DNA of 29,456 nucleotides from the IMG/VR virus record IMGVR_UViG_3300009432_000034, positions 1 to 29,456 of that record; one strand, 5' to 3'. The notes beneath the pieces were generated by a model. The model saw only the letters and a list, made by a program, of their open reading frames with translations, was not told where the DNA came from and did not search any database. Made by a program: the position numbers and the translations under genes. This DNA is from a virus. Every line of letters begins with the position of its first letter. The stretch's first letter is position 1. Below are positions 2-28,981 of the stretch, piece by piece.

Positions 2-163
2 AAGCTACGAGACTGGGTATCACCTAGTAAAACTACAGGTACATCATCTGACTTAGTAGCGATACAGATTTTAGACCTCAAGACACAAGGTGCTATGGAG
101 TTCGAGGATACTGGTGCGTTTGGGGATGAAAGTGAAAGTGAAGGTTATGCAGCAGACTATTAA
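2..163 (+). CDS. C-terminal end of an acidic-tailed protein (possible ssDNA-binding protein), 5' truncated
   Basis: The reading frame beginning at base 2 is open for 53 codons and ends in TAA at 161-163; the start lies before the window. The tail is strongly acidic (EFEDTGAFGDESESEG) and ends in an aromatic residue (AADY). An acidic C-terminus ending in an aromatic residue is the hallmark of phage and bacterial single-stranded DNA-binding proteins, such as T7 gp2.5, where the tail docks polymerase and helicase. The replication genes downstream fit this, but no OB-fold can be judged from the fragment, so the function is inferred. It is followed directly by a terminator. Confidence 0.6.
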   Translation, partial: KLRDWVSPSKTTGTSSDLVAIQILDLKTQGAMEFEDTGAFGDESESEGYAADY

Positions 164-176
164 TTAATTAACATTA

Positions 177-208
177 GGCTCTTAGGGATTTCCCTAGGGG
201 CCTTTTTT
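177..208 (+). terminator. Rho-independent terminator between the truncated gene and nadM
   Basis: The arms 177-188 (GGCTCTTAGGGA) and 191-202 (TCCCTAGGGGCC) can pair along 12 positions, including two or three G-T pairs, around a tiny loop; in practice the innermost pair would open. Six T residues follow at 203-208. This is a textbook intrinsic terminator. The ribosome binding site of the next gene starts only about nine bases after the T-tract, so no promoter fits between them. The downstream operon must rely on read-through, antitermination or a promoter further upstream. Confidence 0.85.
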
Positions 209-227
209 ATATCCAAAAGGAGAACCT

Positions 228-1232
228 ATGAAATTAGCAATCGTGATTGGAAGATTCCAACCGTTACACCTAGGACACATGTCCCTTATTGATAAAGCAC
301 AGAAGGAAGCTGATAAGGTGTTAATACTTATTGGTAGCTCACGTCAACTACCAGATTACAAGAACCCCTTTAGTTACGAGGAGAGGCTCGCTTTGATACA
401 AGATGTATACTCAGCCAGCACTGACCTAATCCTTCGTCCTTTGCCCGATGCCCCTAGTGATGATGAATGGATTAGTAATGTTATTGGTGAGGTACTCAGT
501 ATCGAAGAAGACCCAACCGAAGTATTACTATTGACCCACGAGAAAGATGAGGACTTCTATCGTACCACTTTCCTATTCCCTGTGGAAACCGTGAAAGATG
601 TGCCTATCTCAGCTACAATTATACGACACGCATGGTACCAAGATACACTATGGACTGTTGATGCTTTCATAGATTCACGTGTACTTGAGTTCCTAGAGAA
701 CCATAAAGACCTAGACCGTCTAAGTATGGAGTACGAGGACACAGAAGGCATGTGTGAGATTAAGACACAAGGGCATCCCTTTGGTAATCCCATGGAACCC
801 GTAAGCTTTGCTGCTATCATTCAGGGCGGTAAGTTACTTGTAGGCAGACGAGGCGGTTCTCGTGGTCGTGGGCAGCTAGGGCTTGCTGGTGGTTATGTCC
901 AGAATGACGAGACAACTATGGATGGTTGCATCAGGGAAGTTAAGGAAGAATTAGGTGTTGACTTAGCCTCCTTGATACTATCTAATGATGCTCAGTGTTT
1001 AGCACAGGCTGTCGAAGAGAACATGAATGACTTAGGTTCACGTACCCTTGGGATTAATTACCTATTCGTATTGAAACCTGACCTAGAGTTAGAGATAACG
1101 ATTGATGGTGAAGAGACGACTGAGTTCCAGTGGTTACCCTTGGATTCTGTGTTGCAAGATAAGGAACTCCTCTTCTACAACCACAGTCTAATTCTTAAAC
1201 GTTTATTATCTAAAGTAGGAGAAGCTAAATGA
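228..1232 (+). CDS. nadM: Bifunctional NMN adenylyltransferase / Nudix hydrolase
   Basis: The protein has 334 aa. The N-terminal half is a nucleotidyltransferase of the NMNAT type: GRFQPLHLGH at residues 8-17 carries the HxGH motif (H14, H17), and ISATIIR at 127-133 matches the ISxTxxR substrate loop. It would join NMN and ATP to give NAD+. The C-terminal half holds a complete Nudix box from G222 to about V244 (G-x5-E-x7-REVKEELGV), expected to hydrolyse ADP-ribose or related NDP-X compounds. The domain order and length match the bifunctional NadM/Nudix proteins known from cyanobacteria and from phage KVP40 (NatV). The start follows AAGGAGA at 217-222. It opens the plus-strand operon, overlaps the RNA ligase by four bases, and pairs functionally with the NadV gene at 2021. 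Assignment is firm; the Nudix substrate is inferred. Confidence 0.95.
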   Translation: MKLAIVIGRFQPLHLGHMSLIDKAQKEADKVLILIGSSRQLPDYKNPFSYEERLALIQDVYSASTDLILRPLPDAPSDDEWISNVIGEVLSIEEDPTEVLLLTHEKDEDFYRTTFLFPVETVKDVPISATIIRHAWYQDTLWTVDAFIDSRVLEFLENHKDLDRLSMEYEDTEGMCEIKTQGHPFGNPMEPVSFAAIIQGGKLLVGRRGGSRGRGQLGLAGGYVQNDETTMDGCIREVKEELGVDLASLILSNDAQCLAQAVEENMNDLGSRTLGINYLFVLKPDLELEITIDGEETTEFQWLPLDSVLQDKELLFYNHSLILKRLLSKVGEAK

Positions 1233-1786
1233 TTAATACTAAAGTAGAGTTCAAAGCATGGCCTAAGATACCACGGGCAGTCCTTGGTACTGTTGTAATT
1301 ACCGAGAAAATGGATGGTACTAATGCCTGTGTTATCATAGAAGGTGACGAGATAGTAGGTGTACAGAGTCGTAAGCGTATGTTAAACGTAGGTAAAGAAA
1401 GTGATAACTATGGCTTTGCTCAACACGTGTTTGATAATCAAGAGAAGTTCTTAGCATTAGGTGACGGTAAGCATTATGGTGAATGGGCTGGTTTAGGTAT
1501 CCAAGGGAATCCTCATTGTCTCCCTGAGAAACGTTTCTTCCTCTTTAACACTAGACGGTGGGGAGAGCATAATCCTACTCCTGAGGGAATCTATGTTGTT
1601 CCTATGTTATACCAAGGTGAGTACTCTCACGAGGTTGTTGATGCTATAATGAATGCCCTTAAGACTTCAAGTGAGGATAGAGGTTATAAACCAGAAGGAT
1701 GTGTTGTTTACTTCCCTAAGATAGAGGCTATGGAGAAACATACATTCGAATACAGTAAAGGTAAATGGTTAGGAGACACCGCGTGA
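1229..1786 (+). CDS. RNA ligase family protein (Rnl2-like nucleotidyltransferase)
   Basis: The protein has 185 aa. It contains the covalent nucleotidyltransferase motif I, EKMDGTN, with K27 as the expected AMP-accepting lysine. It also has GEWAG at about residue 83, an aromatic strand (RFFLFNTRRW) in the place of motif IIIa, PEGCVVYF as motif IV, and Lys-rich candidates for motif V near the end. This is the core catalytic domain of the RNA_ligase family (PF09414). It is short, with no C-terminal domain like that of T4 Rnl2 (334 aa). Such enzymes seal nicked RNA, for example tRNA cut by host anticodon nucleases. It overlaps nadM by ATGA and is sandwiched between the two NAD+ salvage enzymes, so it is co-translated with them. 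The family is well supported; the substrate is not. Confidence 0.85.
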   Translation: MINTKVEFKAWPKIPRAVLGTVVITEKMDGTNACVIIEGDEIVGVQSRKRMLNVGKESDNYGFAQHVFDNQEKFLALGDGKHYGEWAGLGIQGNPHCLPEKRFFLFNTRRWGEHNPTPEGIYVVPMLYQGEYSHEVVDAIMNALKTSSEDRGYKPEGCVVYFPKIEAMEKHTFEYSKGKWLGDTA

Positions 1787-2028
1787 ACGATATATTTAAG
1801 TTTTTATGTATAAAGGATTTCTGGATGCAGCCACAGGAACACGAGGAGAGTCCTGCGTTCCTCAAGGGAGAGGTATACGAGGCTGTACGTAGGACAAGTG
1901 ATATATGGAAGTTCCTCTCGGATGCCCACGGAGATAAACACATGATGTCTATAGAGGAACAATTCGTAGATGACCCCATGCACTCTTACATATTATCAGA
2001 CCACCTACAGGAGATAACAAATGAATAA
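1783..2028 (+). CDS. Small conserved-position protein in the NAD+ cassette, function unknown
   Basis: The protein has 81 aa when started at GTG 1783, which overlaps the RNA ligase stop as GTGA and sits seven bases after AGGAG (1771-1775). An in-frame ATG at 1765 would add six residues but lacks a good ribosome binding site. The product is acidic and rich in His, Trp and Met (FWMQPQEHEE, DIWKFLSDAHGDKHMM), with no Cys cluster beyond one residue and no membrane segment. It overlaps nadV by eight bases. Position and tight coupling say it is a real gene working in or with NAD+ salvage or RNA repair. I do not recognise the family. Confidence 0.8.
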   Translation: MNDIFKFLCIKDFWMQPQEHEESPAFLKGEVYEAVRRTSDIWKFLSDAHGDKHMMSIEEQFVDDPMHSYILSDHLQEITNE

Positions 2029-3394
2029 CGTATTACTAATGACAGATAGTTATAAGCTCTCACATTATAGCCAGTATCCCGAGGGCACCGAGTATGTCTA
2101 CAGCTACATAGAAGCAAGGAAGGGGAGCTATCCTGTGGTTGTCCTAGGTATCCATGACTTCATTGATAAGATTACTGGTGGTCTTACAGGTGGAAATATC
2201 TTAGAGCTACAGAATATTGCAGAAGAACACGGGGTACCTTTCAATGAAGATGGGTGGTGGTCTCTCTACAAGAAACACTACGGCTCTGGATTTCCTGTGA
2301 AAATCTATGGTGTACCTGAGGGTACAGTAGTCGACCCAAGTACTCCAGTGGCAACCATAGTAAACACTGACCCTGAGTTCCCTTGGTTAACCTCCTTCTT
2401 CGAGACATTGTTCTTGCGTTGTGTATGGTATCCCTCAACTATTGCAAGCCGTAGCCGTTACGTGAAGTCTCGTATCAAAGAGTTCATGGAACGTACTGGT
2501 GCTGACATGAGTACCATTGATTTCAAACTACATGACTTTGGTGCACGAGGGGTTTCCTCTGGTGAATCATCAGCAGGAGGAGGAGCAGCCCACCTTACAC
2601 AGTTCCTTGGTACTGATAACCTTGAAGCAGTAAAGTATGTTAAAGATAACTACGATATTATTGCTGGTTTTAGTATACCTGCTACTGAGCATTCAACTGT
2701 AACCTCATGGGGTCGTGATGCTGAGTATAAGATGTACGAGAACTTCCTGCGTGTCAATGGTGGAGAAGGTAATATCTTTGCTTGTGTGAGTGACTCATAT
2801 AACATCTGGGAAGCATTACAGATATGGAAAGAGTTAGAGCCAGTGTTGTTAGAGGTCGGTGGTACACTGGTTGTCCGTCCTGACTCAGGTGATCCAGTGT
2901 TAACCCCAGTCAAAGTTATCTCTGACCTAATGGATTACTTTGGTTACACTATAAATGCTAAAGGGTTCAAAGTCCTTCCTGATCATATCCGAGTTATTCA
3001 AGGGGACGGTGTTGACGAGAACTCCATTGTACGTATCATGCAAAGAATGGTTGACAATAAGTTTTCTATTGATAACATAGCATTCGGAATGGGTGGTGGA
3101 TTGTTACAGAAGGTTGACAGAGATACCCTAGGCTGGGCTATGAAGTGTAGTGCTGCCCGAGTTAACGGTGTCTGGAGAGATGTATGGAAAGATCCTATTG
3201 GTGGAGGTAAGACATCTAAGAAAGGCTTAGTTACTGTGGGGGATACAATAGAATTTACTGACCCAGTAGCTTATGTCTACATGGCGCAGAATACTATGGC
3301 ATTCCTAGGTCCTTGGGTAACCTACTATAATGGCGACGCTAACATTAGACCTAGGGATTCATGGGAAACAGTTAAGAAACGAGCGTCCATATGA
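2021..3394 (+). CDS. nadV: Nicotinamide phosphoribosyltransferase (NAMPT/NadV)
   Basis: The protein has 457 aa, close to the usual 460-490 aa of the family. It makes NMN from nicotinamide and PRPP, the step before NMN adenylyltransferase. Visible family signatures are the start TDSYKLSHYSQYP, HDFGARGVSS at about 171-180, PATEHSTVTSWG with the expected catalytic histidine (H224), RPDSGDP for phosphate/ribose binding, and GMGGGLLQKVDRDT near residue 360. The gene starts inside the preceding 81-aa gene (8-base overlap) and ends with an ATGA overlap. With nadM it forms the complete two-step route from nicotinamide to NAD+, as in phage KVP40 and in the NARP2 pathway that lets phages refill NAD+ destroyed by defence NADases. 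The enzymatic call is very secure; the counter-defence role is inferred from context. Confidence 0.97.
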   Translation: MNNVLLMTDSYKLSHYSQYPEGTEYVYSYIEARKGSYPVVVLGIHDFIDKITGGLTGGNILELQNIAEEHGVPFNEDGWWSLYKKHYGSGFPVKIYGVPEGTVVDPSTPVATIVNTDPEFPWLTSFFETLFLRCVWYPSTIASRSRYVKSRIKEFMERTGADMSTIDFKLHDFGARGVSSGESSAGGGAAHLTQFLGTDNLEAVKYVKDNYDIIAGFSIPATEHSTVTSWGRDAEYKMYENFLRVNGGEGNIFACVSDSYNIWEALQIWKELEPVLLEVGGTLVVRPDSGDPVLTPVKVISDLMDYFGYTINAKGFKVLPDHIRVIQGDGVDENSIVRIMQRMVDNKFSIDNIAFGMGGGLLQKVDRDTLGWAMKCSAARVNGVWRDVWKDPIGGGKTSKKGLVTVGDTIEFTDPVAYVYMAQNTMAFLGPWVTYYNGDANIRPRDSWETVKKRASI

Positions 3395-3579
3395 TTGACG
3401 TTGGAGTAGGGTTTTTGCTAGGGATTCTATTAGTATTCGTCCTTTCCCTTAGTTACTCGGTAGGGGCGAGTGGTGTTGAGATAGACATAGAAAAGTCATG
3501 TAAGTTAACAGGTACTTTTGTTGTAAAAGGTACGGTATATACTTGTGAGGAGAAACATGGGTACCATAGTAAAATCTAA
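3391..3579 (+). CDS. Small single-pass membrane protein
   Basis: The protein has 62 aa. Residues 4-26 (VGVGFLLGILLVFVLSLSYSVG) form one hydrophobic helix, followed by a short polar tail with two Cys residues (C37, C52). It could be an N-in or N-out inner membrane protein; a signal peptide with processing after SVGASG is an alternative that would release a peptide of about 35 residues with two Cys into the periplasm. It starts in an ATGA overlap with nadV and overlaps the start of the primase-helicase gene. No family recognised. Confidence 0.75.
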   Translation: MIDVGVGFLLGILLVFVLSLSYSVGASGVEIDIEKSCKLTGTFVVKGTVYTCEEKHGYHSKI

Positions 3580-5221
3580 TTTACCGTGCACTGCCCCTGA
3601 TTCCTGTGGTTCATCCAATGCTATGTCGCAATACGAGGACGGAGGTAAATTCTGTCACAAGTGCCAAGGCTGGGATAACTCAGAGAAATCAGGGGATTAC
3701 GAAGTAGAACAACCAAGAGGTAAGCAGATGAGTTTTGATTTTGAGTTCTATCATAACGCTGAGTTCAAGGGTATCCCTGATAGGCGTATTGATTTAGATA
3801 CATGCAAGAAGTTTGGCATGAAAACAACGAGTAAGGGATCTCACTTGTTCCCTGCGTACAACCCTAAAGGAGAACTGATTGCAGTAAAGGAAAGGTTTTA
3901 CCCCGATAAGAAGTATCAGATACATGGGGACATGAGTGAGGCTATGCTCTTTGGTATGCAGGAGTTTCCTAAGACCGGACGTTCCGTAACGATAACCGAA
4001 GGTGAGTATGATGCTATGGCTGCTTACAGAATGACAGGTAGTAAGTATCCTCACTTCAGTATCTTTAATGGTAGTGGTAGTGCTAAGAAGGAATGCAAGC
4101 GAGGTTTTGAAGCCTTAAAGAACTTTGAGACGATCACCTTAAACTTTGACTCAGATGCTCCCGGGGATAAAGCGATTGAAGAAGTAGGTCCTTTGTTTCC
4201 CGGGCGTACCAAGGTACTAAGGTTAACCGAAGGTAAGGATGCTTGTGATTACCTAAAGGCTAACAAGGGTTCCAAGTATGTCGACGAGTTCTTCCGTGCA
4301 CGACAATATACCTTAGGAGGTATCATTAATGGCGCGGATACTTGGGAGAAGTACAAGGAGAAGAAGAACGTAGAGAGTATATCTTTCGATCCTCAGTATG
4401 AAGTGTTGAATCAGAAGACCTATGGTATACGCTTGGGAGAGATAGTTCTCCTGACAGCTGGCACAGGCTCAGGTAAGACACAGATACTCAGGGAGTGGAA
4501 GTATCACTTGTTAACTACCACGATGTTCTCTATACTTGATATCTCGTTAGAAGAGGATACAGGGGACACAGTTGGTGGGTTGATGGCTATACACGCTAAC
4601 AAACGTATCATGCTTCCTGACGTTAACATACCAGAAGCAGAGGAGAAGAGGATACACGATGAGTTATTCTCTAATAAACGTTTCTTTGCCTTGGATCACG
4701 AGGGAGCAGTCGAAGACGAATCTCTTCTAGACAAGATGGAATATGCAGCTACAGTTGATGGTGTTAAGATTATATTCTTAGATCACATTACTATTGCGGT
4801 ATCCGATTGTGCCGCTGGTAGTGAGAACCTTAGTATGGACAAGTTCATGAATCGTCTGCTTAAGTTAGTTAAACGCTTGAACATATGCGTGGTTGTCGTG
4901 AGTCACCTGCGTAAAGTTGGTGGCGGTGGTAAATCCTTTGAAGAAGGCAGGATACCCACGGAAGATGACTTGAAAGGTTCAGGCTCCCTTAAACAAATAG
5001 CTATGACAACCATAGCAATAGCGAGGAACAAGTATGCTGAAAATGATAAAGAACGAAATACTACTTCATTCCATGTACTTAAATGCCGATTCAGTGGTAG
5101 GACAGGGCCTTGTGATTTTGCCCACTTTGATGACGATACTGGCAGGATGTATGTAGTTAATCCAGACACATTCTTCGATGATGCACAGAGTGAGTTTGAC
5201 GATAAGCCAATAGGTTACTAA
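3557..5221 (+). CDS. T7 gp4-like DNA primase-helicase
   Basis: The protein has 554 aa, close to T7 gp4 (566 aa). The start ATG 3557 follows GAGGAG (3547-3552); an in-frame GTG at 3545 is part of that site and is less likely. Domains in order are: a zinc-binding primase domain with C11, C17, C33 and C36 (the first pair is spaced CX5C rather than the CX2C of T7); a TOPRIM primase core with ITEGEYDA near 145-152 and FDSDAPGDKA near 197-206; and a RecA-like hexameric helicase with Walker A AGTGSGKT near 301-308 and Walker B KIIFLDH near 403-409, followed by VVVVSHLRK. It unwinds DNA ahead of the polymerase and lays down primers at the phage fork. The tail is acidic (DDAQSEFDD), as in gp4, where it contacts the polymerase. 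Confidence 0.96.
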   Translation: MGTIVKSNLPCTAPDSCGSSNAMSQYEDGGKFCHKCQGWDNSEKSGDYEVEQPRGKQMSFDFEFYHNAEFKGIPDRRIDLDTCKKFGMKTTSKGSHLFPAYNPKGELIAVKERFYPDKKYQIHGDMSEAMLFGMQEFPKTGRSVTITEGEYDAMAAYRMTGSKYPHFSIFNGSGSAKKECKRGFEALKNFETITLNFDSDAPGDKAIEEVGPLFPGRTKVLRLTEGKDACDYLKANKGSKYVDEFFRARQYTLGGIINGADTWEKYKEKKNVESISFDPQYEVLNQKTYGIRLGEIVLLTAGTGSGKTQILREWKYHLLTTTMFSILDISLEEDTGDTVGGLMAIHANKRIMLPDVNIPEAEEKRIHDELFSNKRFFALDHEGAVEDESLLDKMEYAATVDGVKIIFLDHITIAVSDCAAGSENLSMDKFMNRLLKLVKRLNICVVVVSHLRKVGGGGKSFEEGRIPTEDDLKGSGSLKQIAMTTIAIARNKYAENDKERNTTSFHVLKCRFSGRTGPCDFAHFDDDTGRMYVVNPDTFFDDAQSEFDDKPIGY

Positions 5222-5232
5222 GGAGATAACGG

Positions 5233-5436
5233 ATGTCACGTGTATTCTATGCAGTTAATAGAGAAACAGGGGAACGGTGGTCGCCTAACCCCCACGAAGA
5301 GAAGCAGTACTTAGTTATGTATGATAGTGGTTACTTAGCTGTGGTTACTTTCGTACCTTGGGAGAATAACTATTTAGTTCCATTAGACCCTAAGGTATGG
5401 AGGATAGAACACAATGTGGAAAGAGTTAGAAGGTAA
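5233..5436 (+). CDS. Small hypothetical protein between helicase and polymerase
   Basis: The protein has 67 aa. It starts after AAGGAGATAACGG and its last 23 bases overlap the beginning of the polymerase gene, whose own ribosome binding site (GGAGG, 5399-5403) lies within it. The sequence is rich in aromatic residues and beta-prone (QYLVMYDSGYLAVVTFVPW), with no Cys cluster or membrane helix. Its place between two replisome genes suggests an accessory role, but no family is recognised. Confidence 0.8.
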   Translation: MSRVFYAVNRETGERWSPNPHEEKQYLVMYDSGYLAVVTFVPWENNYLVPLDPKVWRIEHNVERVRR

Positions 5437-7456
5437 AACCATTGGTGTCTTTGATACTGAGACTAATGGTTTGCTACACAATGTATCAGAGGTTCACTGC
5501 TGTGTTATATCAGTTACTAGGGACCCTAAGAGCATGGAGACCATGGAGTACTGCCTTGGTGCACAGAAGTTATACCTAGCAGCACTTGATAAGTTAGATG
5601 TATTAGCAGGACATAACATCATTGGGTTCGACCTTCCTCTCTTGAAGCAGATGTTTGGTTGGTCCCCTAGGCCTGATGTTATAATCCTAGATACCTTATG
5701 GATGAGTAGAATGTATCATCCTGATATTGAAGGAGGACATTCCCTTGGTTCTTGGGGTGCTCGCTTAGGTAACTCCAAGGTGGAGTATTATCCAGTAACC
5801 GACCCTGAACAGGACTGTTATGATCCTGATGCTAACATTAAATTAGATAAGGGTTGGGAGCGTAGTCATTACACAGAAGCCATGGGTGCTTACTGTGTTC
5901 AGGATGTTAAGGTCAATGTTGATGTATTCTGGAAGCTCGTTAGTTTACTTAAGAACTTCTCATGGCAGAGTATTAAATGTGAGATGGATACTGCTATAAT
6001 AATCCAAAGACAGATGCAACATGGGTTTGTCTTTGATGTTAAGGGTGGTGAGCTTTTACATGCGAAACTCGTGGAACGTGTTATTGAGTTAGAGGACGAG
6101 GTGCTGAAAACCTTTAAGCCTATCGCTAAGTTTGTTCGAGAAGTTCAACCTAAGGTTAAGAAGGATATTACAGTTTCTTCTGTTGGTCTTAAGAAGATTG
6201 ATGACTGGGAAACTGTTATAGATGTTCCTGAGTTTACTGAACGCTTACAGATAGACTCTACTTTCAAACTAGTACCTGAGGGAACCCCAGATTCCTTTCC
6301 TGATGGGGAGGAAGGTACATGGTACACCTCTGAGGACTTTCCTGTATATCACAAGGTTTATACCAGTGGTTCCTTTAGTCTCATAGAGTTTCCTGAGTTT
6401 TCCCTAGGTTCTAGGCAACAGATTGCGGAACGCTTAGTACGTTCAGGATACGTATTAACTAAGCAGACTGAGAAAGGTAACTATATTATAGACGATGTAG
6501 TTCTACAGGAGGCCGCAGACGCAGGTATCCCAGAAGCTGTTCCCTTGGCTGAATACTTTCTAGTTCAGAAACGAGAAGCTATGGTTAAGTCTTGGATAGA
6601 AAAATCGGTGTGGCATAAGGACCAAGGTGTACATAGGATCCATGGTTACGTTAATTCCATGGGTGCTAATACTAATCGTATGACTCATAGTTCTCCTAAC
6701 GTTGCTCAGGTTCCCGCTGGTGGTAAGCCTTACGGTAAAGAATGCCGTAGTCTCTTTGGGGTCCGCAAGGGTTACAAGTTAGTTGGCTGTGATGCTAGTG
6801 GCTTGGAGCTACGTACTCTCGCTCATTACATGGGTGATAGAACTTACATACAGACTTTACTTGAAGGTGATATCCATTGGGTAAACTGTATAGCTGTTGG
6901 GTTTGTACCCGAGGGAACCGTTCGTGATAAGACAAGCCATATACATGATGGACTTAGGGACAACGTTAAGACGTTTATCTATGCCTTTCTTTACGGTGCT
7001 GGAGATGCTAAGATAGGGGCTATAGTTGGTGGTAAAGCTAAGGAAGGTAAGAAGCTTAAAGCTAACTTCCTAGAGAAAACACCAGCACTCGCTAAGCTCA
7101 GAGAAGGTGTATTAAAGGCTGCTAAAGATCGTGGGTGGCTTAAGGGATTCGATGGTCGTATCCTGAGAGTACGTAGCCCACACTCAGCCCTCAACACACT
7201 GTTGCAAGGCATGGGAGCTATAGTCATGAAGTACTGGTTAATTGAAGTAGCACTTGTTGCTGATGCTGAAGGCTTAGATTGGAACCCTTCTGGTAACATA
7301 CATGATGAAGGTCAGTTTGAGGTTCTTGAGAAAGACGTTGAACGCTTCAGTGAGATATGTGTCGCAGCTTTCCCTAAGATTTCACAGGAACTAGGTTCCA
7401 AGTGTTTACTTGAGGGTGAGGTCAAGGTAGGCGATAACTGGTCTCAAACACACTAA
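5414..7456 (+). CDS. Family A DNA polymerase with 3'-5' exonuclease (T7 gp5-like)
   Basis: The protein has 680 aa (T7 gp5 has 704). The N-terminal proofreading exonuclease shows motif I FDTETNG with D14 and E16, a second motif GHNIIGFDLP near residue 66-75, and YCVQDVKVN near residue 165. The polymerase domain has motif A CDASGLELR with catalytic D460, motif B KTFIYAFLYGAG with K519 and Y523, and motif C NIHDEGQ with H630, D631 and E632. Tyr at 523 corresponds to Y526 of T7 and position 762 of E. coli Pol I. It would replicate the phage genome with the upstream primase-helicase. The start ATG 5414 follows GGAGG at 5399-5403 and overlaps the previous gene. The thioredoxin-binding loop of T7 is not obvious by eye. 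Confidence 0.97.
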   Translation: MWKELEGKTIGVFDTETNGLLHNVSEVHCCVISVTRDPKSMETMEYCLGAQKLYLAALDKLDVLAGHNIIGFDLPLLKQMFGWSPRPDVIILDTLWMSRMYHPDIEGGHSLGSWGARLGNSKVEYYPVTDPEQDCYDPDANIKLDKGWERSHYTEAMGAYCVQDVKVNVDVFWKLVSLLKNFSWQSIKCEMDTAIIIQRQMQHGFVFDVKGGELLHAKLVERVIELEDEVLKTFKPIAKFVREVQPKVKKDITVSSVGLKKIDDWETVIDVPEFTERLQIDSTFKLVPEGTPDSFPDGEEGTWYTSEDFPVYHKVYTSGSFSLIEFPEFSLGSRQQIAERLVRSGYVLTKQTEKGNYIIDDVVLQEAADAGIPEAVPLAEYFLVQKREAMVKSWIEKSVWHKDQGVHRIHGYVNSMGANTNRMTHSSPNVAQVPAGGKPYGKECRSLFGVRKGYKLVGCDASGLELRTLAHYMGDRTYIQTLLEGDIHWVNCIAVGFVPEGTVRDKTSHIHDGLRDNVKTFIYAFLYGAGDAKIGAIVGGKAKEGKKLKANFLEKTPALAKLREGVLKAAKDRGWLKGFDGRILRVRSPHSALNTLLQGMGAIVMKYWLIEVALVADAEGLDWNPSGNIHDEGQFEVLEKDVERFSEICVAAFPKISQELGSKCLLEGEVKVGDNWSQTH

Positions 7457-17043: not shown

Positions 17044-17339
17044 TATGCTTTCTCCAGTATTTCAATACGTTTAACAGCTAGTTGTAGTAATACATTCAGC
17101 TGTCTCATATTTCGAATATGTACTCCATCTCCCTCAGCAGGATACAAGGTAACCTTAGGTGTTGCTTCCCTCAAACTCCTTATGAATTCGTGTCCGTAAA
17201 TAGTAGCAGTGGATCCCATGAAAGAAAGTACCACTCCCGTACTCTCAATGTAAATAAAACCAGAAGTGGCTAAAGCTAACGTAGGAGAGGCTCCACTGTA
17301 CAGGAACCCTCCTGTTGCTAATGTTAGCGAGTTAAGCAT
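17043..17339 (-). CDS. Small tail-region protein with internal repeat, paralogue of the downstream gene
   Basis: The protein has 98 aa. The N-terminus carries an internal repeat: LTLATGGFLYSG is followed at once by LALATSGFIYIE. The C-terminal 36 residues are paralogous to the downstream gene (LYPAEGDGVHIR and the NVLLQLAVKRIEILEK helix). Its start overlaps the tail-fibre stop by eight bases and has only a weak ribosome binding site, so it is probably translated by coupling to the fibre gene. A role as a fibre-associated or virion decoration protein is inferred from position. Confidence 0.75.
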   Translation of the reverse strand: MLNSLTLATGGFLYSGASPTLALATSGFIYIESTGVVLSFMGSTATIYGHEFIRSLREATPKVTLYPAEGDGVHIRNMRQLNVLLQLAVKRIEILEKA

Positions 17340-19755
17340 CTCTAGTTATTGTAGAGGTACTCACCCCATTTCCACTAATAGTAAGGTCTATGTCGTCTAC
17401 ACTTATACTTGTAGGAGTCATAGTCACTGGATTTCCTAATGACAAACCTCTTATTTTATGCAGATCTGTTGTAAAACCTTCAACTGCTGTAAGTTTAGCA
17501 CTTTCTGTTGGGGTTAAACCACTTACACCTGTAGACACTGTATATACCGGGTCATAATCTATCTGAATAGACCCCGACAATGAAGCTATAATAGTGGCAC
17601 CATCCGTACCGTATATCCTACCCCCTTTTAAAAGTAAGGGAACTGTCTTTGTGTTATCAATTTTAACACCAACAACAGCGGCGTTTATCCTAATACTATT
17701 TAAGCTTTCCCACAGTATTGCACCAAAACCCTCATTAATGCCTACTGATGTAGTTATAAAATAGTAATACCATGCTGCAAACCTCTGGACACTTGTACTA
17801 TTATCTGCATCATTAATGTCTACTTCTATGTTACCACTATCCCAACTAAACTCAGAAATTGCAGACCCATCCACACCGAAGGTGGTGTAGTTGGTAAAAG
17901 CTACTTGTGTTGTGGGGAGGGAGTTCACTGTTGATGCTGTTGTAAATGTAAAGGAACCCTCTATTGGCTCTTTAGCATTCACACCACTCTGGTAGCTTAC
18001 ACGGTATCTGCCAACATCCCCTGCTGTGTACTCTGTCCCTTTTGTGTAGCTAGCACTAATCCCTGCACCTCCAGAGACCGTTGCATTGTTTAACTCACTT
18101 CCTGTAGTGACGTTGTATATTTGAAAGCGTGAGCCGTCTATGATATTGGGAAGCTGTAAGCTGTAAGTGACGGGAGGGGAAATTGTTCCATTGGCATCAG
18201 TTCGCGTTCCATTAAATGTAGCGCCATTTAATAGGGTTATTACACCTGTTGTTACCATATCACCCGTGTAAGTAGATGATTTAATAGTTATTGTTGTTCC
18301 TGCAAAAGAAAAGGCACTACTTGCTGTAGCGTCAATATTTACGTTAAACGCCCCTAGTATTGCTTCATTTCCTGATAATCTGACATATTTTTCGTTTTCA
18401 AAATTATCATTATTTACCCACTCATACTTAGCTCTACAATAAAAGTCTTCTTTAGAGTTAATGAGTGTTAGTGCAGAGGCTTCTGATTCAGTTAGTGTTG
18501 CCTCTAAATCAAGAATCATAATTGTTGTTGCCACGTCATCACCGAGTAAGCCACCAACTCCGTAGTTTCTGTTTTGGAATATGTAACGAGGTGAATCGTA
18601 CTCGTAGATTCTACCTTGTGCATTGTATTGGTAAGACTCAGTAATACCGTTAGAGTCTCCTTGTCCAGCATTGTTTCTGGCTTTTAACGTGTCTATAAGG
18701 TCTACTTGGTATATGCCATCCGCTGTAGTTGTGAAATCAAGCGCCGCTGCCTGTGGATGTGTTGCAAGTAAAGAAAGATCATAACCACTGCCTGCGCTTC
18801 TAACTATAGTATCAATACGAACTAATACGCCTTCTATGCCGTTAGTGCCGTCAGAAAATGTAATCTTTTGATTGAATCTTACACAGAAGCCAGTGACAGA
18901 ACCAGCGCTAAACCCTGCATTTAAATCACCATTCCAAGAATTTATCGGGAATTTAGGTGAGTTAATAAAATATTGCCCTTTCCTCCAAGTCCCTGTAAAT
19001 GCGGCTGAGCTGACACCGTCTGTTCCAAAAGATGCGTTATTAAGTACTACAACGCTATCAGAGACCTCTCCAGCAATTGCAAAGGTAGGTATAGAAGCGT
19101 TTTCATAAGTCGTGTCGTATGCTTGGAATATCTCACCCCCTCCTGAAAGGTTTAAGTTTTCAGAAAGATCTAAAGACCCGACATTTCTTGAAGTACCAAA
19201 ATACCATTTTTGCGAGCTGGTAATTCCTGCTACTACAATGTATGTCAGGCCTTCCATCTGTATAGAAGCTGGTCTCAAAGCTGGATTCAGTGTAGGAAAG
19301 TCGTTCCTATTAGTATTATTTTTTGTAATTAAAGGATTGATTCCTGTTACGTCTTTAAGAAAGATAGCAGTGCCTCCAGTGCTTACCATAAAGCAGTCTC
19401 CATCAAATCTTCTAACGCTAGTTAATAATTTAATAACTGAACGGTATCCAAAAATGACAGAGCCACCATCATTTGCATTAGGAGAACTTTCACTCTTTGG
19501 ATAACTTCGAAAATCTGTTCTAAGTTCAACTGTGCTGTCATCATCCCATTTAAACCAAGCACCTGCTTCTACAGCAAGCTTAAGACTATCAAGCCACATT
19601 ATATTACCAGAGCGAAACCCTCTCGTGTTTATGTCCGAAGAACCGTTTGCAACAAAAGCATCGGCTAAAGAAGAGGCTAAGTTAGGAGACGCTTGTGTGC
19701 CTCCCGTCACTGTTGCTACGACATTAGAACCATCCCAGTTTAGTGAAAAAGACAT
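17332..19755 (-). CDS. Tail fibre protein
   Basis: The protein has 807 aa. It is rich in Ser, Thr, Asn, Gly and Ala with few Cys and reads as a long beta-structured fibre. The region RFAAWYYYFITTSVGI through INAAVVGVKIDN to LLLKGGRIYGTDGATIIA is a module shared by many phage tail fibres. The last 65 residues (LTPTESAKLTAVEG, HKIRGLSLGNPVTMTPTSI) form the conserved distal segment seen in fibres and linked small proteins. No catalytic depolymerase motif is evident by eye. It would bind the host surface and set host range. AGGGGAG precedes ATG 19755. It lies downstream of the 59-aa basic gene and overlaps the first of two small paralogous genes. Confidence 0.85.
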   Translation of the reverse strand: MSFSLNWDGSNVVATVTGGTQASPNLASSLADAFVANGSSDINTRGFRSGNIMWLDSLKLAVEAGAWFKWDDDSTVELRTDFRSYPKSESSPNANDGGSVIFGYRSVIKLLTSVRRFDGDCFMVSTGGTAIFLKDVTGINPLITKNNTNRNDFPTLNPALRPASIQMEGLTYIVVAGITSSQKWYFGTSRNVGSLDLSENLNLSGGGEIFQAYDTTYENASIPTFAIAGEVSDSVVVLNNASFGTDGVSSAAFTGTWRKGQYFINSPKFPINSWNGDLNAGFSAGSVTGFCVRFNQKITFSDGTNGIEGVLVRIDTIVRSAGSGYDLSLLATHPQAAALDFTTTADGIYQVDLIDTLKARNNAGQGDSNGITESYQYNAQGRIYEYDSPRYIFQNRNYGVGGLLGDDVATTIMILDLEATLTESEASALTLINSKEDFYCRAKYEWVNNDNFENEKYVRLSGNEAILGAFNVNIDATASSAFSFAGTTITIKSSTYTGDMVTTGVITLLNGATFNGTRTDANGTISPPVTYSLQLPNIIDGSRFQIYNVTTGSELNNATVSGGAGISASYTKGTEYTAGDVGRYRVSYQSGVNAKEPIEGSFTFTTASTVNSLPTTQVAFTNYTTFGVDGSAISEFSWDSGNIEVDINDADNSTSVQRFAAWYYYFITTSVGINEGFGAILWESLNSIRINAAVVGVKIDNTKTVPLLLKGGRIYGTDGATIIASLSGSIQIDYDPVYTVSTGVSGLTPTESAKLTAVEGFTTDLHKIRGLSLGNPVTMTPTSISVDDIDLTISGNGVSTSTITRDA

Positions 19756-19758
19756 TAA

Positions 19759-19938
19759 CTACGACTCCCCTGTTAGCTTACTTATTTTCTTGTACTTTGT
19801 TACGTAGGTATCATATCTAGCCTGATGTTTAGCTTGAGTTAACCGAAGTACCCTACGTTTATCAGGACCCTGTTGTACTTTAATAAAAGCAACACGTGCT
19901 CTCCAGCGAAACCATACTTCTTTGATTAAATCTATCAT
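19759..19938 (-). CDS. Small basic hypothetical protein
   Basis: The protein has 59 aa when started at ATG 19938, which overlaps the preceding stop as ATGA; a GTG at 19950 would add four residues. The product is strongly basic and helical (FRWRARVAFIKVQQGPDKRR, then HQARYDTYVTKYKKISK), with about a third charged residues. It sits between the 132-aa tail protein and the fibre gene. It could be a chaperone or a small virion part; no family recognised. Confidence 0.7.
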   Translation of the reverse strand: MIDLIKEVWFRWRARVAFIKVQQGPDKRRVLRLTQAKHQARYDTYVTKYKKISKLTGES

Positions 19939-20333
19939 AAGGAAAACCACCCACTTGTATTTACTGTAACGTTGATATTAGTACCATTAGGAGTAACAGG
20001 TAATCCTGTGGCTGTGTCTATGTAAGCAACAAGCCTACTGGTAGCTGCATCCCCTGAGTCCTGTACGAGCACTAAAGCTTCTGAGACATCCCCTGTAACC
20101 GAAGGGTATACAAGGTCATCTGAGTTGAACACCCCGTTAAGGATGCTCTTAGTGCTTAAGTTATTTGACGTAGCTATACGATCCCCTATGGGTATTTCAC
20201 TTAGGAATACATGGGAGGCATTATAGGAGTATGCAGCAGTATCTACTAGGACTGCTACAATGTTATCTATCTCTAGGTCTATGTCCCCTCCTAAGAAACC
20301 TTCTTTAGCTTTTGGGTATAATACATTAGGCAT
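19935..20333 (-). CDS. Conserved tail-associated protein
   Basis: The protein has 132 aa. The order NVLYPKAKEGFLGGDIDLEID, LVDTAAYSYNASHVFLSEI, IATSNNLSTKSILNGVFNSDDLVYPSVTGD, and SRLVAYIDTATGLPVTPNGTNI is a pattern I recognise from many phage structural proteins encoded next to tail-fibre genes, usually without a named function. It is predicted all-beta. It starts in a TAATG overlap and follows GGGAGGTGAG. A tail or fibre-attachment component is the most likely role. Confidence 0.75.
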   Translation of the reverse strand: MPNVLYPKAKEGFLGGDIDLEIDNIVAVLVDTAAYSYNASHVFLSEIPIGDRIATSNNLSTKSILNGVFNSDDLVYPSVTGDVSEALVLVQDSGDAATSRLVAYIDTATGLPVTPNGTNINVTVNTSGWFSL

Positions 20334-20659
20334 TACTCACCTCCCTTGTTCATAAATTTAAGTAAACTATTAAGTTCTTTAATTGCTGTGGTTAAGTGTT
20401 CCATTTGAACCTCTCTCTTAGCGGCACTAATTTCCCCTATTTGTATCTGTTTACGATTCTGTTCTATCCTGATGTCTTGTTTATCCAGAGACTCCATGTT
20501 TATCTGGGTACGCTGGGCCGCTTGTGCTGTGATAGCTAACGCAACCTGTACCTGTCCCAAATCCTTCTCCAAGGGAACTATAGTGAGGGTATAAAGCCCC
20601 GCTACAATCCCTATACAAACACCAACTGCTGCGATGAAATCACTAGTATTTACGATCAC
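20333..20659 (-). CDS. Membrane-anchored coiled-coil protein (spanin- or XhlA-like)
   Basis: The protein has 108 aa from GTG 20659, eight bases after AGGAGG (20673-20668); TTG 20662 is an alternative five bases after it. One N-terminal helix (residues about 8-28, IAAVGVCIGIVAGLYTLTIV) is followed by a long polar helix rich in Gln, Glu and Lys with heptad-like spacing and no Cys. This shape fits an Rz-type inner-membrane spanin or a hemolysin XhlA-like protein, both lysis functions, but it could also be a virion membrane anchor. Neighbours are structural genes, so the lysis reading is uncertain. Confidence 0.6.
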   Translation of the reverse strand: MIVNTSDFIAAVGVCIGIVAGLYTLTIVPLEKDLGQVQVALAITAQAAQRTQINMESLDKQDIRIEQNRKQIQIGEISAAKREVQMEHLTTAIKELNSLLKFMNKGGE

Positions 20660-20671
20660 CAACTGTACCTC

Positions 20672-21553
20672 CTATTTAGTTTCTAGAGCATCCAGCTTTA
20701 GTTCAGCTATCTTTTTAAAGTTTGCCCATCTATCTCTGTAGGAATTACCAAGTTCTCGCTTAGTAATCTTACCTGCCGTAGCAGACTCTCGTGCTTCGTT
20801 ACGTTCAACTTCCTCATCATCTTGAAGAAATGCAATAATCTTATGCCATGTAGGATTCTCTTTCTTCCATACTTCCCAATCGTGATTCTTACGCTGCTTC
20901 ATCCTCTTATCCAATCCCTCTGGATTTAAACTTTCAATAGATTTAATATGTTTATCCGCACCATCCCTATAACCATCATGATGTAACAGGGAGTCAGCTT
21001 GTTTTATAATTAACTCTAGATCCTCTTTATTATCATCCTTAAGACGCTTTGTTCGCATCTTGTCACCGTGTTTCTCTTGGTTCATCTCAAAGAATATATC
21101 TTCCTTGAATGCAGAAAACGTCTTAGCTTCCTTAAGCATTATACGCCTAACCGCATTCTCTTCCCCACCGAAGAAACCACCGTGACTTGGCTTGTCATCT
21201 AGTAACTTATGTGTGTACTCGTGAGCGGCAGTTTCCTTTATAGCCCCAGTATCTAGACCTACGACTTCCCCGGGTTCCATGGTGTAATTACCTCCTTGTC
21301 CTTTGAAAGACGAAGGGACACGCTCAGTGTAAGTACCTAAGTATTCTTTAGGTAAGTAAGCTCCCTTCTTAGTCCACCGAATAGGTACGCCTGTAGATCC
21401 TACATACTTATAAGCCTCTGGATCTACCTTACCTTCTAAGAGGGCACCACCAGCATAATCAACATCTGATTGGAACTCAACGTCCCCAACATCTTCGTTC
21501 ATCTTACGTAACTCTTCTTCCGTGAAGTTACCAAACATACTTTTCTTAGCCAT
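20672..21553 (-). CDS. HExxH zinc metallopeptidase-like virion-region protein
   Basis: The protein has 293 aa. Residues 111-115 are HEYTH within KETAAHEYTHKLL, a full HExxH zinc-peptidase motif preceded by helix-forming residues. E131 or E132 (FFGGEENAVRRIM), about 16 residues further on, is a candidate third ligand in a following helix. The rest is charged and helical (many Lys, Asp, Glu, Arg) with no membrane segment or signal peptide. GGAGG precedes ATG 21553, which overlaps the stop of the 1293-aa gene by eight bases. Possible roles are processing of the large internal proteins or attack on host protein after ejection. The motif is clear; activity is inferred. Confidence 0.7.
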   Translation of the reverse strand: MAKKSMFGNFTEEELRKMNEDVGDVEFQSDVDYAGGALLEGKVDPEAYKYVGSTGVPIRWTKKGAYLPKEYLGTYTERVPSSFKGQGGNYTMEPGEVVGLDTGAIKETAAHEYTHKLLDDKPSHGGFFGGEENAVRRIMLKEAKTFSAFKEDIFFEMNQEKHGDKMRTKRLKDDNKEDLELIIKQADSLLHHDGYRDGADKHIKSIESLNPEGLDKRMKQRKNHDWEVWKKENPTWHKIIAFLQDDEEVERNEARESATAGKITKRELGNSYRDRWANFKKIAELKLDALETK

Positions 21554-24500
21554 TAATGAATACCTCCAGTTCTTCTTCAGTTGCGTCTGGGTTAGTTTCT
21601 AAGAACTTAATAACCGAAGCAGATGGTTTACTAGAGGCCTTAACCCTATCGACTACACTTTCTGGTAGACCCTTCTGAGCTAGCTTTTTAGTTACTCTAT
21701 CAATAATCTGTTGATCATCAATACCTCTAGACCTTCCTTCTACTAACGCTTCTTCTATCGCGTTAACATCAGCTACCCATTCTTGGTCGTAACCTAATCC
21801 ACCTTCTTCCTCAGAAACACCAGCACTCGTGGTAACACCAGCCTGTAACCATGTTCGATTTAGATTTAAAGCCGCAGCCTCTTTCTCCATCTTAGTATGT
21901 GCTTTAGTAAACTGAGAACGAGCAGCAAATGTTTCAGAGGCAAACGCTTTATCTGAAAGTAACTTACTCATTAGATAGGTAAGTTCTTCAACTTGGTCAT
22001 CACTCATAGAAGCAACACGCTTAGCAGCAATCTTACCTGCGTGAAGTAAAGCTAAGTAAGTACGGTTGATCCCCATTACTTCTCTCTGTCTTAACGAAGT
22101 AAATAACGAAGGTAACTCTCGAATCACTGTTAGCATTTTACTTGATGGGTGCATTGAATCGAAGTCAGTTATAACTTTAGTATCTGGTACATTATTACTA
22201 AACTCTACTTGTTCCATGAAACCCTGCATATTCTCAAACTCATCCTTCCCTAAGAGAACCTTTAGTCCTTTCTTGTGTGCTTGAAAAGATTTAAGTAATT
22301 CTCCAGTATCTAGGAAAGCCTCAGGATTCTCAGAATTAAATGCTTTCTGAAAGATTGAGGATACAGCTTGCTTCTTTATAACAGGTATTTGATCAGGTTG
22401 AAAAGTATCCAACCACTCTTTCAAACTAAGAGAAGAGATGTCACTCTTAAGTATCTTAGAGAAAGAAGCATCCAAGTCATCAGTATCCATTAACTGTTTC
22501 ATAATCTTAGTAGTTTGGTCAAGCTCAGCTACCCGTACGTCCTTTAGTGCCTTCTGTACATCAGGAGAGCTAAAGATAGAACTAGTGTCCTTTATTAAAT
22601 TATCAACCTCACTGAGAATCTCAGGGAAGAATTGTAACTTAGAACTATTATCAAACTTCCACTGGCTTAATGCGGCCCTAGGATCACTAGCTTTAACTAT
22701 AGTCTTCGCTATTTCCTGCTGGATATGATTAGTTACACCTAACATTAAAGACATGTGAGCATCCTTAGAGGTAGCGTAAACAGTATCTATTCCCGGGAGT
22801 TGCTCTAAGATATCCTCACTTAGTATATCCCCTAGTCCTTGCATCTCGTCAAACATATTAATACCGGGAGTACTCTCGTTAGATAAGGTAGCCAATCTAC
22901 GAATGTTGGTATCTGATTCAGGGCCTCCCCAGATCATGGCACCTACTTGATCAGCAGCAACCTTACCTACTGTGGTGTTTCTAGCAGCAGTCTTTAGAGT
23001 ATCTCCGCCTACTGACATCTCTCCAAAGATAGGAAGGTAAGCTGTCTTATACCATTCCTTGGCTGCCGTACGTTTCTTAAGTAACTCAGGAAATTCTTTC
23101 AAGCCTTCAGTCAAGAAATCTTCCATTCCAGACACAGCTTTAGTGAGATACTTTAGACGCTCAGGGTCGTTGTTAGAAGACTTAAGGTCTCTTTGTTCTG
23201 ACTTTAAATCTTTAACTACAGTATCCAAGTGTGTATAAGTAGTCTGTCTATACTTAATAGGTATGTTAGTAATAGCATAACTAGTTTCGCCTTTAGCTAT
23301 AGAACTAGCTACCTCAGTAATATCTACCAATACGTCGCCTACTTTTACTTTAATATCAGCACCCTTATACATATCTAAGATACTTCTAGACTGAGCAACA
23401 TTCAAAGAGCTATACACTTCCTTAGCTATTTTATCAGGTACCTCAAACTTAAAGAACTGATTCATCTCAGCAGAAGAACCTCTCTTCATGTCCATTGTGT
23501 ATACAACAGAATTCTCAGGGTCTATATCAAACAAAGCATCATTGACCTGCTTAATATTCTTCCTGAAGTACTCAAACTTCTCTTTAATCATAGCCCCTAC
23601 AACGGTTCTAGACTCGGGAGCATTCAAGGTATCTAGTATAGTAATATTAGTTAAGGAATCAACACCACCATAAAGTTCAGTCAAGGCTTCTTGCTTAACC
23701 TTATAGTTTTCCTCAGCAGCTAAAACTAATGCTCTTTTCTCCAGAGGAGTAGCTGTAGACATCTTGGATTTTATGATTCCATCTATCTTAGTTAAACGTG
23801 CAAAGGTCTTTTCAACGTGAACATCCCCTTGGATCTCCGCAAGCATAAGAGCAAACTTCTGTTGGTGTGGAGTTTTAGCGTAGTTAATCCAAGAGATATC
23901 ATCCCCAAACTTAAGAGGAGAGTTTTCTTCTAACCACGAAAACCTTGATTTATCACTAAGTAAATCCTCAAGTTGTACACCTGACTTCTGTAGTTTATCA
24001 AAGATCTCATCCGCGAACAGTCCTGTACTAGAGTTACTCTTTGTCATATCCGTGCTTAACTTTGTATCCATAGGTACTTCAATGTCTACCTCAAAAGTAG
24101 CATTACCTTCCACGTCTAATATAGGCTTACCTGCTTCATCTAGAATAGGCTTTCGTTTGTTAATAAATCTATCAATACCTTTAAGCACAGCACCAACATG
24201 AGTTTTCTTAACTGTATTTACTGTGTCTCCTAGTAACTCATTGTCCCCTAGTTTACCAAAGAACTTTCTACCCATGTTCCAAGAGGCACGAGAGGCAGTA
24301 GTAACAACTTTCAATCCTTGTGCTGTTCTATTGAAGGCAGGTCTTAACTTATCAGTACCCCTATATCCTACAGCCCCTCCTCCAAAGGCAGCGAGTATAG
24401 CAACAACAGGTGCGTATTCAGGCTTAGCTGATTCATCACTGAGGTACCAATCCATAACAGCTTCCGAAGAAAGTGAACTAGTTATTGCTGCCATTCCTTC

Positions 24501-25427
24501 CCTAGCTAAGAAGTAAGCAGGATTATCCGTCATCTTTATAATGTCATCTTTAAGGAACTGAGGTAAATCCGAGTCTATAATATTAGTAGATTTACCTAGC
24601 TTACGCATGGCAGACGCAGCAGTAACTACCGAAGCTAGAGCACCGAAAGCGTTACCTGCGTAAGAAGCTAAAGCTGTCTCAGGTTTAACTTGGGCTACAT
24701 TCTGCATATAAAGTTCTTCAACTGAAAACCCAAACCACTCAGGAGTAAACCCAGTAGCAGGGCTAGCATCCTTAACAGCTTCCTCAAATGACATGTCGCC
24801 ATCTATCATATTCCAGAGTAACTCATAAGGAGCCGCTCCGGTTTCCGTAACGAAATCAACTGTGTTATGGATAAGAGTAGGAAGAAGAAAGGTAGCTATA
24901 TCTGCAGTACCTAAGATACCAGCGGGAATCTTGTGCGCCAAGAAACGTGCATCATTTCTATCTGCCCCATCAGTCATATAAGATCCGTCGTATACAGCTT
25001 TAAGAAACTGTTCGTCTTCCATCTTAGTCTGCCAGTTCTCTTCTGGCTGAAACCCTTCTGCGTATATACTATCTTCAGCACCTTGAGTATCCTCATCTAA
25101 CCCGAATAGAGAATTGAATGCTGCTTGGTTTTCTTCAGCAATATAAGGTTCTTCTTCTTCTTCAGGCGCAACTGTAGGGTCTAAAGTAACTGTAGGTTCT
25201 TCAGGTGTAACCTCAGGATCCATAGTAACCTCAGGATCCATAGTAACCTCAGGATCCATAGTAACCTCAGGATCCTCCTGTGGTACACTAGTAGGCATTT
25301 GTTCTGCCTGTGGTGGAGTAGGGTTGCTCCCTAGTAAAGACGTCTGAGGAACTAAATTAGGAGCCACTAACGTGTTATTTTCTATCTCTTTATCTTCATC
25401 TAAACTAGAGTCTAATGTAATTGGCAT
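21546..25427 (-). CDS. Very large internal virion (DNA ejection) protein
   Basis: The protein has 1293 aa, the longest product here and similar in size to T7 gp16 (1318 aa). The N-terminus is acidic and Pro-rich with DPEVT repeated four times (52-75) and an EEEEE run, so probably disordered. Hydrophobic stretches follow near 167-192, 252-275 and 338-357, able to enter a membrane, and then a long helical, charged body. No lysozyme/transglycosylase or RNA polymerase motif is apparent. The place among virion genes, size and mixed hydrophobic-helical make-up suggest an internal protein ejected with the DNA. AGGAGC precedes the start. Confidence 0.75.
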   Translation of the reverse strand: MPITLDSSLDEDKEIENNTLVAPNLVPQTSLLGSNPTPPQAEQMPTSVPQEDPEVTMDPEVTMDPEVTMDPEVTPEEPTVTLDPTVAPEEEEEPYIAEENQAAFNSLFGLDEDTQGAEDSIYAEGFQPEENWQTKMEDEQFLKAVYDGSYMTDGADRNDARFLAHKIPAGILGTADIATFLLPTLIHNTVDFVTETGAAPYELLWNMIDGDMSFEEAVKDASPATGFTPEWFGFSVEELYMQNVAQVKPETALASYAGNAFGALASVVTAASAMRKLGKSTNIIDSDLPQFLKDDIIKMTDNPAYFLAREGMAAITSSLSSEAVMDWYLSDESAKPEYAPVVAILAAFGGGAVGYRGTDKLRPAFNRTAQGLKVVTTASRASWNMGRKFFGKLGDNELLGDTVNTVKKTHVGAVLKGIDRFINKRKPILDEAGKPILDVEGNATFEVDIEVPMDTKLSTDMTKSNSSTGLFADEIFDKLQKSGVQLEDLLSDKSRFSWLEENSPLKFGDDISWINYAKTPHQQKFALMLAEIQGDVHVEKTFARLTKIDGIIKSKMSTATPLEKRALVLAAEENYKVKQEALTELYGGVDSLTNITILDTLNAPESRTVVGAMIKEKFEYFRKNIKQVNDALFDIDPENSVVYTMDMKRGSSAEMNQFFKFEVPDKIAKEVYSSLNVAQSRSILDMYKGADIKVKVGDVLVDITEVASSIAKGETSYAITNIPIKYRQTTYTHLDTVVKDLKSEQRDLKSSNNDPERLKYLTKAVSGMEDFLTEGLKEFPELLKKRTAAKEWYKTAYLPIFGEMSVGGDTLKTAARNTTVGKVAADQVGAMIWGGPESDTNIRRLATLSNESTPGINMFDEMQGLGDILSEDILEQLPGIDTVYATSKDAHMSLMLGVTNHIQQEIAKTIVKASDPRAALSQWKFDNSSKLQFFPEILSEVDNLIKDTSSIFSSPDVQKALKDVRVAELDQTTKIMKQLMDTDDLDASFSKILKSDISSLSLKEWLDTFQPDQIPVIKKQAVSSIFQKAFNSENPEAFLDTGELLKSFQAHKKGLKVLLGKDEFENMQGFMEQVEFSNNVPDTKVITDFDSMHPSSKMLTVIRELPSLFTSLRQREVMGINRTYLALLHAGKIAAKRVASMSDDQVEELTYLMSKLLSDKAFASETFAARSQFTKAHTKMEKEAAALNLNRTWLQAGVTTSAGVSEEEGGLGYDQEWVADVNAIEEALVEGRSRGIDDQQIIDRVTKKLAQKGLPESVVDRVKASSKPSASVIKFLETNPDATEEELEVFING
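25207..25275 (-). repeat. 18-base tandem repeat in the large internal protein gene
   Basis: On the plus strand GTAACCTCAGGATCCATA is repeated exactly at 25207-25224, 25225-25242 and 25243-25260, with a fourth copy of 15 bases (25261-25275). Read on the minus strand it encodes DPEVTM three times, then DPEVTP. The lack of any silent change between copies shows recent expansion or active homogenisation. Confidence 0.95.
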
Positions 25428-25436
25428 GTAGTGCTC

Positions 25437-27754: not shown

Positions 27755-27764
27755 TTATGTCTCC

Positions 27765-28967: not shown

Positions 28968-28981
28968 ATATTATCTCCTGT

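Follow-up and report, generated by a model that had tools for sequence, protein, structure and literature searches.

A putative NAD+ re-synthesis cassette with an intervening RNA ligase gene in the replication operon of a podovirus-like phage clade

The window analyzed here, 29,456 bases long, is a piece of a viral contig (IMG/VR record IMGVR_UViG_3300009432_000034, positions 1 to 29,456) that lacks end repeats. Two of its genes, encoding an NMNAT-Nudix protein and a nicotinamide phosphoribosyltransferase (NAMPT/NadV) between positions 228 and 3394, probably constitute a NadV/NadM cassette for the re-synthesis of nicotinamide adenine dinucleotide (NAD+) of the type termed NARP2. The gene order, the catalytic residues, their conservation, and the substitution of a specificity loop in the Nudix half are read directly from the DNA and from a clade of five lineages, which we designate by the labels of the compared loci (L-numbers): window/L004, L006, L019, L020, and L098.

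The NMNAT-Nudix bifunctional protein (NadM/NatV-like; 228..1232, + strand; 334 amino acids, aa) matches the Pfam families CTP_transf_like (E 5e-13) and NUDIX (8e-13), with the NMNAT half at about aa 1-140 and the Nudix half at about aa 190-334. A sequence-only reading of this DNA had called the enzyme intact on the basis of its HxGH, ISxTxxR, and Nudix box motifs, and all three were located: HLGH at aa 14-17, ISATIIR at aa 127-133, and an exact GX5EX7REUXEEXGU box at aa 222-244, beginning at G222. In addition, a profile built from nine phage homologues can be aligned over its full length with two NMNAT/Nudix structures, 2qjo (E 1e-108) and 2qjt (1e-98). Two observations weigh against this assignment. 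The protein scores 141 bits against an NCBIfam equivalog cut-off of 397, a threshold that the characterized NatV of Vibrio phage KVP40 likewise falls under (272 bits), and NMNAT is the fastest-diverging protein of the block, with 45-48% identity to L006, L019, L020, and L098 versus 61-76% for NAMPT, primase-helicase, and PolA. Neither NMNAT-Nudix nor NAMPT contains internal stops, their family matches lie far beyond chance, and both recur in L004, a 99.6% identical contig of the same phage, as well as in four diverged lineages.

The NAMPT gene (2021..3394, + strand; 457 aa) matches Pfam NAMPT_N (9e-19), NAPRTase (3e-48), and PHROG 448 (6e-141), passes the curated cut-off of NCBIfam NF006629 (489 vs 405 bits), and aligns over residues 2-406 with the Xanthomonas NAMPT 7yqo (E 5e-111). 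The earlier description of an intact NAMPT is borne out by the presence of H224, RPDSGD (286-291), and GGGLLQKV (358-365); likewise, the catalytic residues D9, Y11, F173, R176, D199, S218, H224, R286, and D288 are all in place and do not vary when the protein is aligned with relatives. A family match alone cannot separate Nampt from its homologue Namat, the enzyme that acts with Adps in NARP1 (PMC12774641), so a NARP1-like route from ADP-ribose through ADP-ribose pyrophosphate (ADPR-PP) to NAD+ was weighed. Namat carries a selectivity clamp formed by the aromatics Phe392/Tyr396, and Gly and Lys at these positions are the very substitutions that were introduced into Namat to perturb it (PMC12774641). 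When the clamp positions are mapped onto the window NAMPT, anchored on a shared RD motif, they are occupied by G360 and K364, as in Nampt rather than Phe/Tyr. With the clamp residues absent, the NARP1/Namat assignment was rejected. NARP1 also differs in using ADPR-PP without an NMNAT, whereas an NMNAT gene is present here, and none of the proteins scanned in the window, itself a fragment, matches the PRPP-synthetase-like Adps. We therefore regard the NARP1-like route as exceedingly improbable.

Both enzyme genes lie on the + strand in the same block, separated by 788 bp. The claim that the two form one overlapping operon does not hold as worded: they neither adjoin nor overlap, an RNA ligase gene and a small open reading frame (ORF) intervene, and overlap exists only along the chain. 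In this chain (NMNAT, RNA ligase, small ORF, NAMPT, and a 62-aa ORF), neighbors share overlaps of a few bases and AGGAG sites precede the first four genes. The small ORF (1783..2028, + strand; 81 aa from GTG) shares a GTGA with the stop codon of the RNA ligase gene and has no family match in Pfam, PHROG, or PADLOC scans; its place is taken by a 127-aa ORF in L006 and an 87-aa ORF in L019. The 62-aa ORF (3391..3579, + strand), taken from the ORF list, shares an ATGA overlap with the NAMPT stop and has no match in Pfam or PHROG. The same block continues with a primase-helicase (3557..5221, + strand; PHROG 239, E 5e-146) and a family A DNA polymerase (PolA; 5414..7456, + strand; PHROG 17, E 7e-132). 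Just 5' of the cassette, a hairpin with a T tail (176..203, + strand; 12-pair stem with 7 G-C pairs, then TTTTTATATC) resembles an intrinsic terminator and, as such, may mark the end of the preceding transcription unit. It is intergenic and the strongest of five terminator-like sites in the region, a number that shows no excess over the 5.6 expected from shuffles.

Gene content, catalytic residues, and the Nampt-type G360/K364 fit the nicotinamide to nicotinamide mononucleotide (NMN) to NAD+ (NARP2) pathway put forward in the sequence-only reading, and it is the combination of Nampt-type residues with intact NMNAT and NAMPT motifs that predicts this chemistry. NAMPT would join nicotinamide, which any NADase releases, to phosphoribosyl pyrophosphate (PRPP) to form NMN, and the NMNAT half would adenylate NMN with ATP to yield NAD+. 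The chain, predicted to be translationally linked, leads into the replication genes, and NAD+ is therefore probably sustained from early or middle infection. Sustained NAD+ would blunt NAD+-depleting immunity and would also serve phage nucleotide synthesis. We infer these enzyme activities, the timing of expression, and the anti-defence benefit from sequence, and an anti-defence role of the cassette is plausible. NARP2 (Osterman et al. 2024, via PMC11984713 and PMC12300627) is reported as a phage counter-defence by the latter two sources, and it resembles the window in that NAMPT and NMNAT are predicted to rebuild NAD+ from nicotinamide. It differs in that the window has an RNA ligase and a small ORF inserted and has its Nudix loop substituted.

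Alternatively, the cassette could be chiefly a metabolic support that raises NAD(P)(H) for phage nucleotide and DNA synthesis, with only an incidental effect on NADase immunity. The genes run on into primase-helicase and PolA, and their strand also encodes both subunits of ribonucleotide reductase, ThyX, a thioredoxin/glutaredoxin-like protein, and MazG-like hydrolases; furthermore, PMC6715854 read such phage genes as nucleotide salvage for replication. Yet the corresponding stretches of Slicky01 and Aeromonas 1233, which have similar replication genes, contain neither NMNAT nor NAMPT, and reconstitution of NAD+ against NADase effectors was proposed for NadV/NadM in 2022 (PMC9503650). A purely metabolic role is thus a possibility to be taken seriously, though short of probable, and the anti-NADase and metabolic benefits may both be real.

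The cassette is conserved at considerable divergence. NMNAT precedes NAMPT in all five lineages, and the order NMNAT, NAMPT, primase-helicase, PolA is kept in the window, L019, L020, and L098 despite protein differences of 24-55%; L006 retains NMNAT, RNA ligase, and NAMPT as far as the contig end. Compared with the window, the RNA ligase of the diverged lineages is 67-72% identical, NAMPT 61-70%, primase-helicase 70-76%, and PolA 63-67%. The window has no DNA-level relatives among named phages. On a relative's contig, G002 (30,951 bases), PHROG matches identify genes for a head-tail adaptor, a terminase, and major head and tail proteins, and the window PolA is closest to those of podoviruses, the nearest named being Slicky01, Aeromonas 1233, and Vibrio CHOED at 40-45% identity. 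Together, the structural proteins and the polymerase suggest that the clade is podoviral. Since G002 reaches about 28 kb past the start of NMNAT in one direction and the window about 29 kb in the opposite one, the genome would be at least about 57 kb if the two are collinear; most of the named phages closest in PolA have genomes of 63-67 kb, and we estimate a clade genome of about 60 kb.

Several features of individual lineages were also recorded. Between the window and L004, 36 of 46 differences fall within window 109-701 (the last part of the upstream gene together with the 5' half of NMNAT), which may be either a recombination patch or a fast-evolving segment; a synonymous/non-synonymous comparison of the pair is limited by too few changes, bunched in the 5' 700 bases. 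The primase-helicase of L020 (L020:3133-5790) is 885 aa long versus the usual ~560, and by eye the extra sequence, which begins at the Walker A motif, resembles an intein. A Gene product 88 family protein (PF17338) is encoded 1.6 kb upstream of the cassette in L004 (L004:82-810), with a similar ORF in L006 (6256-6969).

Cassettes of this kind are not confined to the clade. Among 50,697 phage records, 1,904 match NAMPT and 416 match NMNAT, all below 60% identity. With an NMNAT-Nudix profile, 80 viral-contig loci were gathered; NAMPT is present in 71, always on the same strand, with NMNAT preceding NAMPT in 69 and a gap of less than 1 kb in 55. A macro-domain-like gene is found in 20 of these 80 loci, often between NMNAT and NAMPT (L052, L056, L063, L065, L072, and others), and two of four such proteins tested pass the Pfam macro cut-off; within the clade, L006 has a macro-domain-like gene 8.3 kb upstream (PHROG 335). 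Two ranked samples of these 416 NMNAT records consist almost wholly of genomes above 110 kb, one exception being a 53-kb Klebsiella record named as a myovirus, and the small phages of PMC9503650 carry NadV in ~2% and Nudix proteins in 0.25%. The cassette is therefore unusual in a small genome, though not unheard of.

Of the named systems, Vibrio phage KVP40 (NadV and NatV; Lee et al. 2017, as cited in PMC6715854) has both enzyme types, its NMNAT likewise being fused to Nudix; this NatV can be aligned to 97% of the window NMNAT, with 28% identity. Unlike the window, this 245-kb myovirus has no NAMPT within 10 kb of natV (L082) and retains a standard FDNPNRS loop. Similarly, the Ruegeria, Rhodobacter, and Xanthomonas phages DSS3P8, RcXuper, and X1 encode NMNAT-Nudix, one small gene, and NAMPT in that order on one strand, but their genomes are 146-200 kb, no RNA ligase lies in between, and their NMNAT is only ~30% identical. 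The NAD+ cassette itself is thus of a known kind; the clade departs from it in the RNA ligase insertion, the Nudix loop, and the small phage.

The first of these departures to be considered is the Nudix X-loop, a specificity loop lying about 17 residues past the Nudix box and in contact with the X moiety (PMC5389931). A proline in this loop marks some ADP-ribose hydrolases, and Synechocystis NadM is placed in an ADP-ribose clade (PMC5389931). We compared 80 other distinct NMNAT-Nudix proteins with the five clade members. A script picked out a D-x-x-x-R-S/D motif, in most cases FDxPxRSxRGR, in 76 of the 80, and three of the four missed (L016, L075, and L091) carry it on reading, for a total of 79; the sole non-clade protein without it is that of Xanthomonas phage X1. 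All five clade members instead have EEN[M/L]xxLxxRT and retain the catalytic positions of the Nudix box. In the window the region occupies aa 263-274 (1014..1049, + strand; EENMNDLGSRTL), where EENMND begins at aa 263 as part of this clade-specific substitute for the D-x-P-x-R-S-x-R-G-R motif. Because the ADP-ribose-type D-x-P-x-R-S loop is absent, we file the protein as NMNAT-Nudix and not as an ADP-ribose pyrophosphatase.

A loop substituted so consistently beside a retained catalytic box suggests that specificity has shifted, not that the domain has decayed. The proposal that the Nudix part could remove ADP-ribose is weakened by the loop substitution throughout the clade, intact as the box is: the Nudix half more likely acts on something other than free ADP-ribose, or only weakly on it, and activity on ADP-ribose may have been lost in the clade. 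A more specific conjecture is that it edits NAD-capped or otherwise capped RNA, or another dinucleotide, and that the RNA ligase acts on the product. The substituted loop and retained box in all five lineages, the adjoining RNA ligase gene, and a weak match to an RNA-decapping Nudix family of Pfam (E 7e-4, under the cut-off) would accord with this idea. Nonetheless, among solved structures the Nudix half still finds its best relatives in NadM proteins, and the NADH-diphosphatase signature SQPWPFPQS (PMC5389931) is absent from the sequence; we consider RNA cap editing very unlikely.

The second departure is the small RNA ligase (1229..1786, + strand; 185 aa), which consists of a nucleotidyltransferase domain only and matches PF09414 (E 1.8e-12, above the cut-off) and PHROG 548 (7e-26). 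As expected of an Rnl2/Rnl5-like domain, it has the lysine nucleotidyltransferase motif KxDG, here KMDG (aa 27-30), and downstream of it motifs III, IIIa, and IV, here GEWAG (84-88), FFLFN (103-107), and PEGCVVY (155-161); K27, G30, E85, E156, and G157 are invariant across a 37-sequence alignment; the motif V region (K-x-K) features a single near-invariant K170, mostly followed by x-T. An AlphaFold model (predicted local distance difference test, pLDDT, 89) finds its best PDB match in Naegleria RNA ligase (E 5e-7) and also matches T4 Rnl2. The catalytic domain alone aligns with T4 Rnl2 (335 aa), the second domain of which is missing from the window protein. The gene is present in four of the five lineages (window/L004, L006, L020, and L098) and missing from L019, where the 87-aa ORF takes up the space.

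On the simple reading, the RNA ligase and the NAD+ genes share a replication operon, the ligase being a replication-block gene of the clade that would be co-expressed with the cassette. Among 80 loci of this ligase family, only four have NMNAT or NAMPT within 1 kb, all from the clade, and the ligase was accordingly rejected as a default, general NAD+ partner. Its relatives elsewhere sit in replication or nucleotide blocks near polA or primase-helicase (e.g., L017 and L018). For example, Vibrio phage 1.026.O, RHEph21, and Tucker (podoviruses and mycobacteriophages) encode members of the same PF09414 family (177-205 aa, 41-49% identical), but in replication or nucleotide-metabolism blocks and not between NMNAT and NAMPT.

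A joint module for NAD+ and RNA repair is the alternative, in which the ligase would re-seal tRNA or other RNA cut by defence nucleases while NAMPT and NMNAT reverse NAD+ loss. It would account for the retention of the ligase between the two enzymes in four of five lineages, and it gains some support from unrelated phages: RtcB lies directly upstream of NadM-NadV in Rhizobium phage V1VFA-S (L015, 15012-19209), an RNA ligase and polynucleotide kinase lie near NadM-NadV in DSS3P8 and RcXuper, with the kinase and a large RNA ligase placed upstream at L002 and L010, and a large RNA ligase is found in 9 of the 80 NMNAT-Nudix loci. It is set back by the otherwise unlinked distribution of this ligase family, often beside polA or primase-helicase, by the ligase-free L019, and by the lack of a kinase or phosphatase partner among the window proteins scanned. 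On balance a joint module seems unlikely, though worth keeping in view. More doubtful still is a bolder version, in which a ~60-kb podovirus clade merged NAD+ re-synthesis and RNA sealing in one replication-linked operon and re-tooled its Nudix domain away from ADP-ribose (e.g., toward capped RNA or an immune signal of the cyclic ADP-ribose type), so that three proteins would reverse NAD+ loss and RNA damage.

Beyond the cassette, the - strand of the window (17332-29455) encodes large late-side proteins of 807, 293, 1293, 558, 213, 400, and 157+ aa, mostly without a PHROG or significant Pfam match; a tblastn search of named phages with the 558-aa protein returned no match. A PADLOC scan of the cassette and late proteins gave a single weak, uninformative match, on the Nudix half.

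Overall, on the probable NARP2-type reading of these genes, the range of a complete NAD+ rebuilding cassette, which in sampled named phages occurs almost only above ~110 kb, widens to an undescribed podovirus-like clade with an estimated genome of ~60 kb, where it lies inside a replication operon. An intact catalytic box with a wholly substituted specificity loop offers a clean case for asking whether phage NMNAT-Nudix proteins must destroy ADP-ribose. Finally, RNA-repair genes recur near NAD+ salvage genes among unrelated phages, a testable hint that NAD+ loss and RNA damage may be handled jointly.

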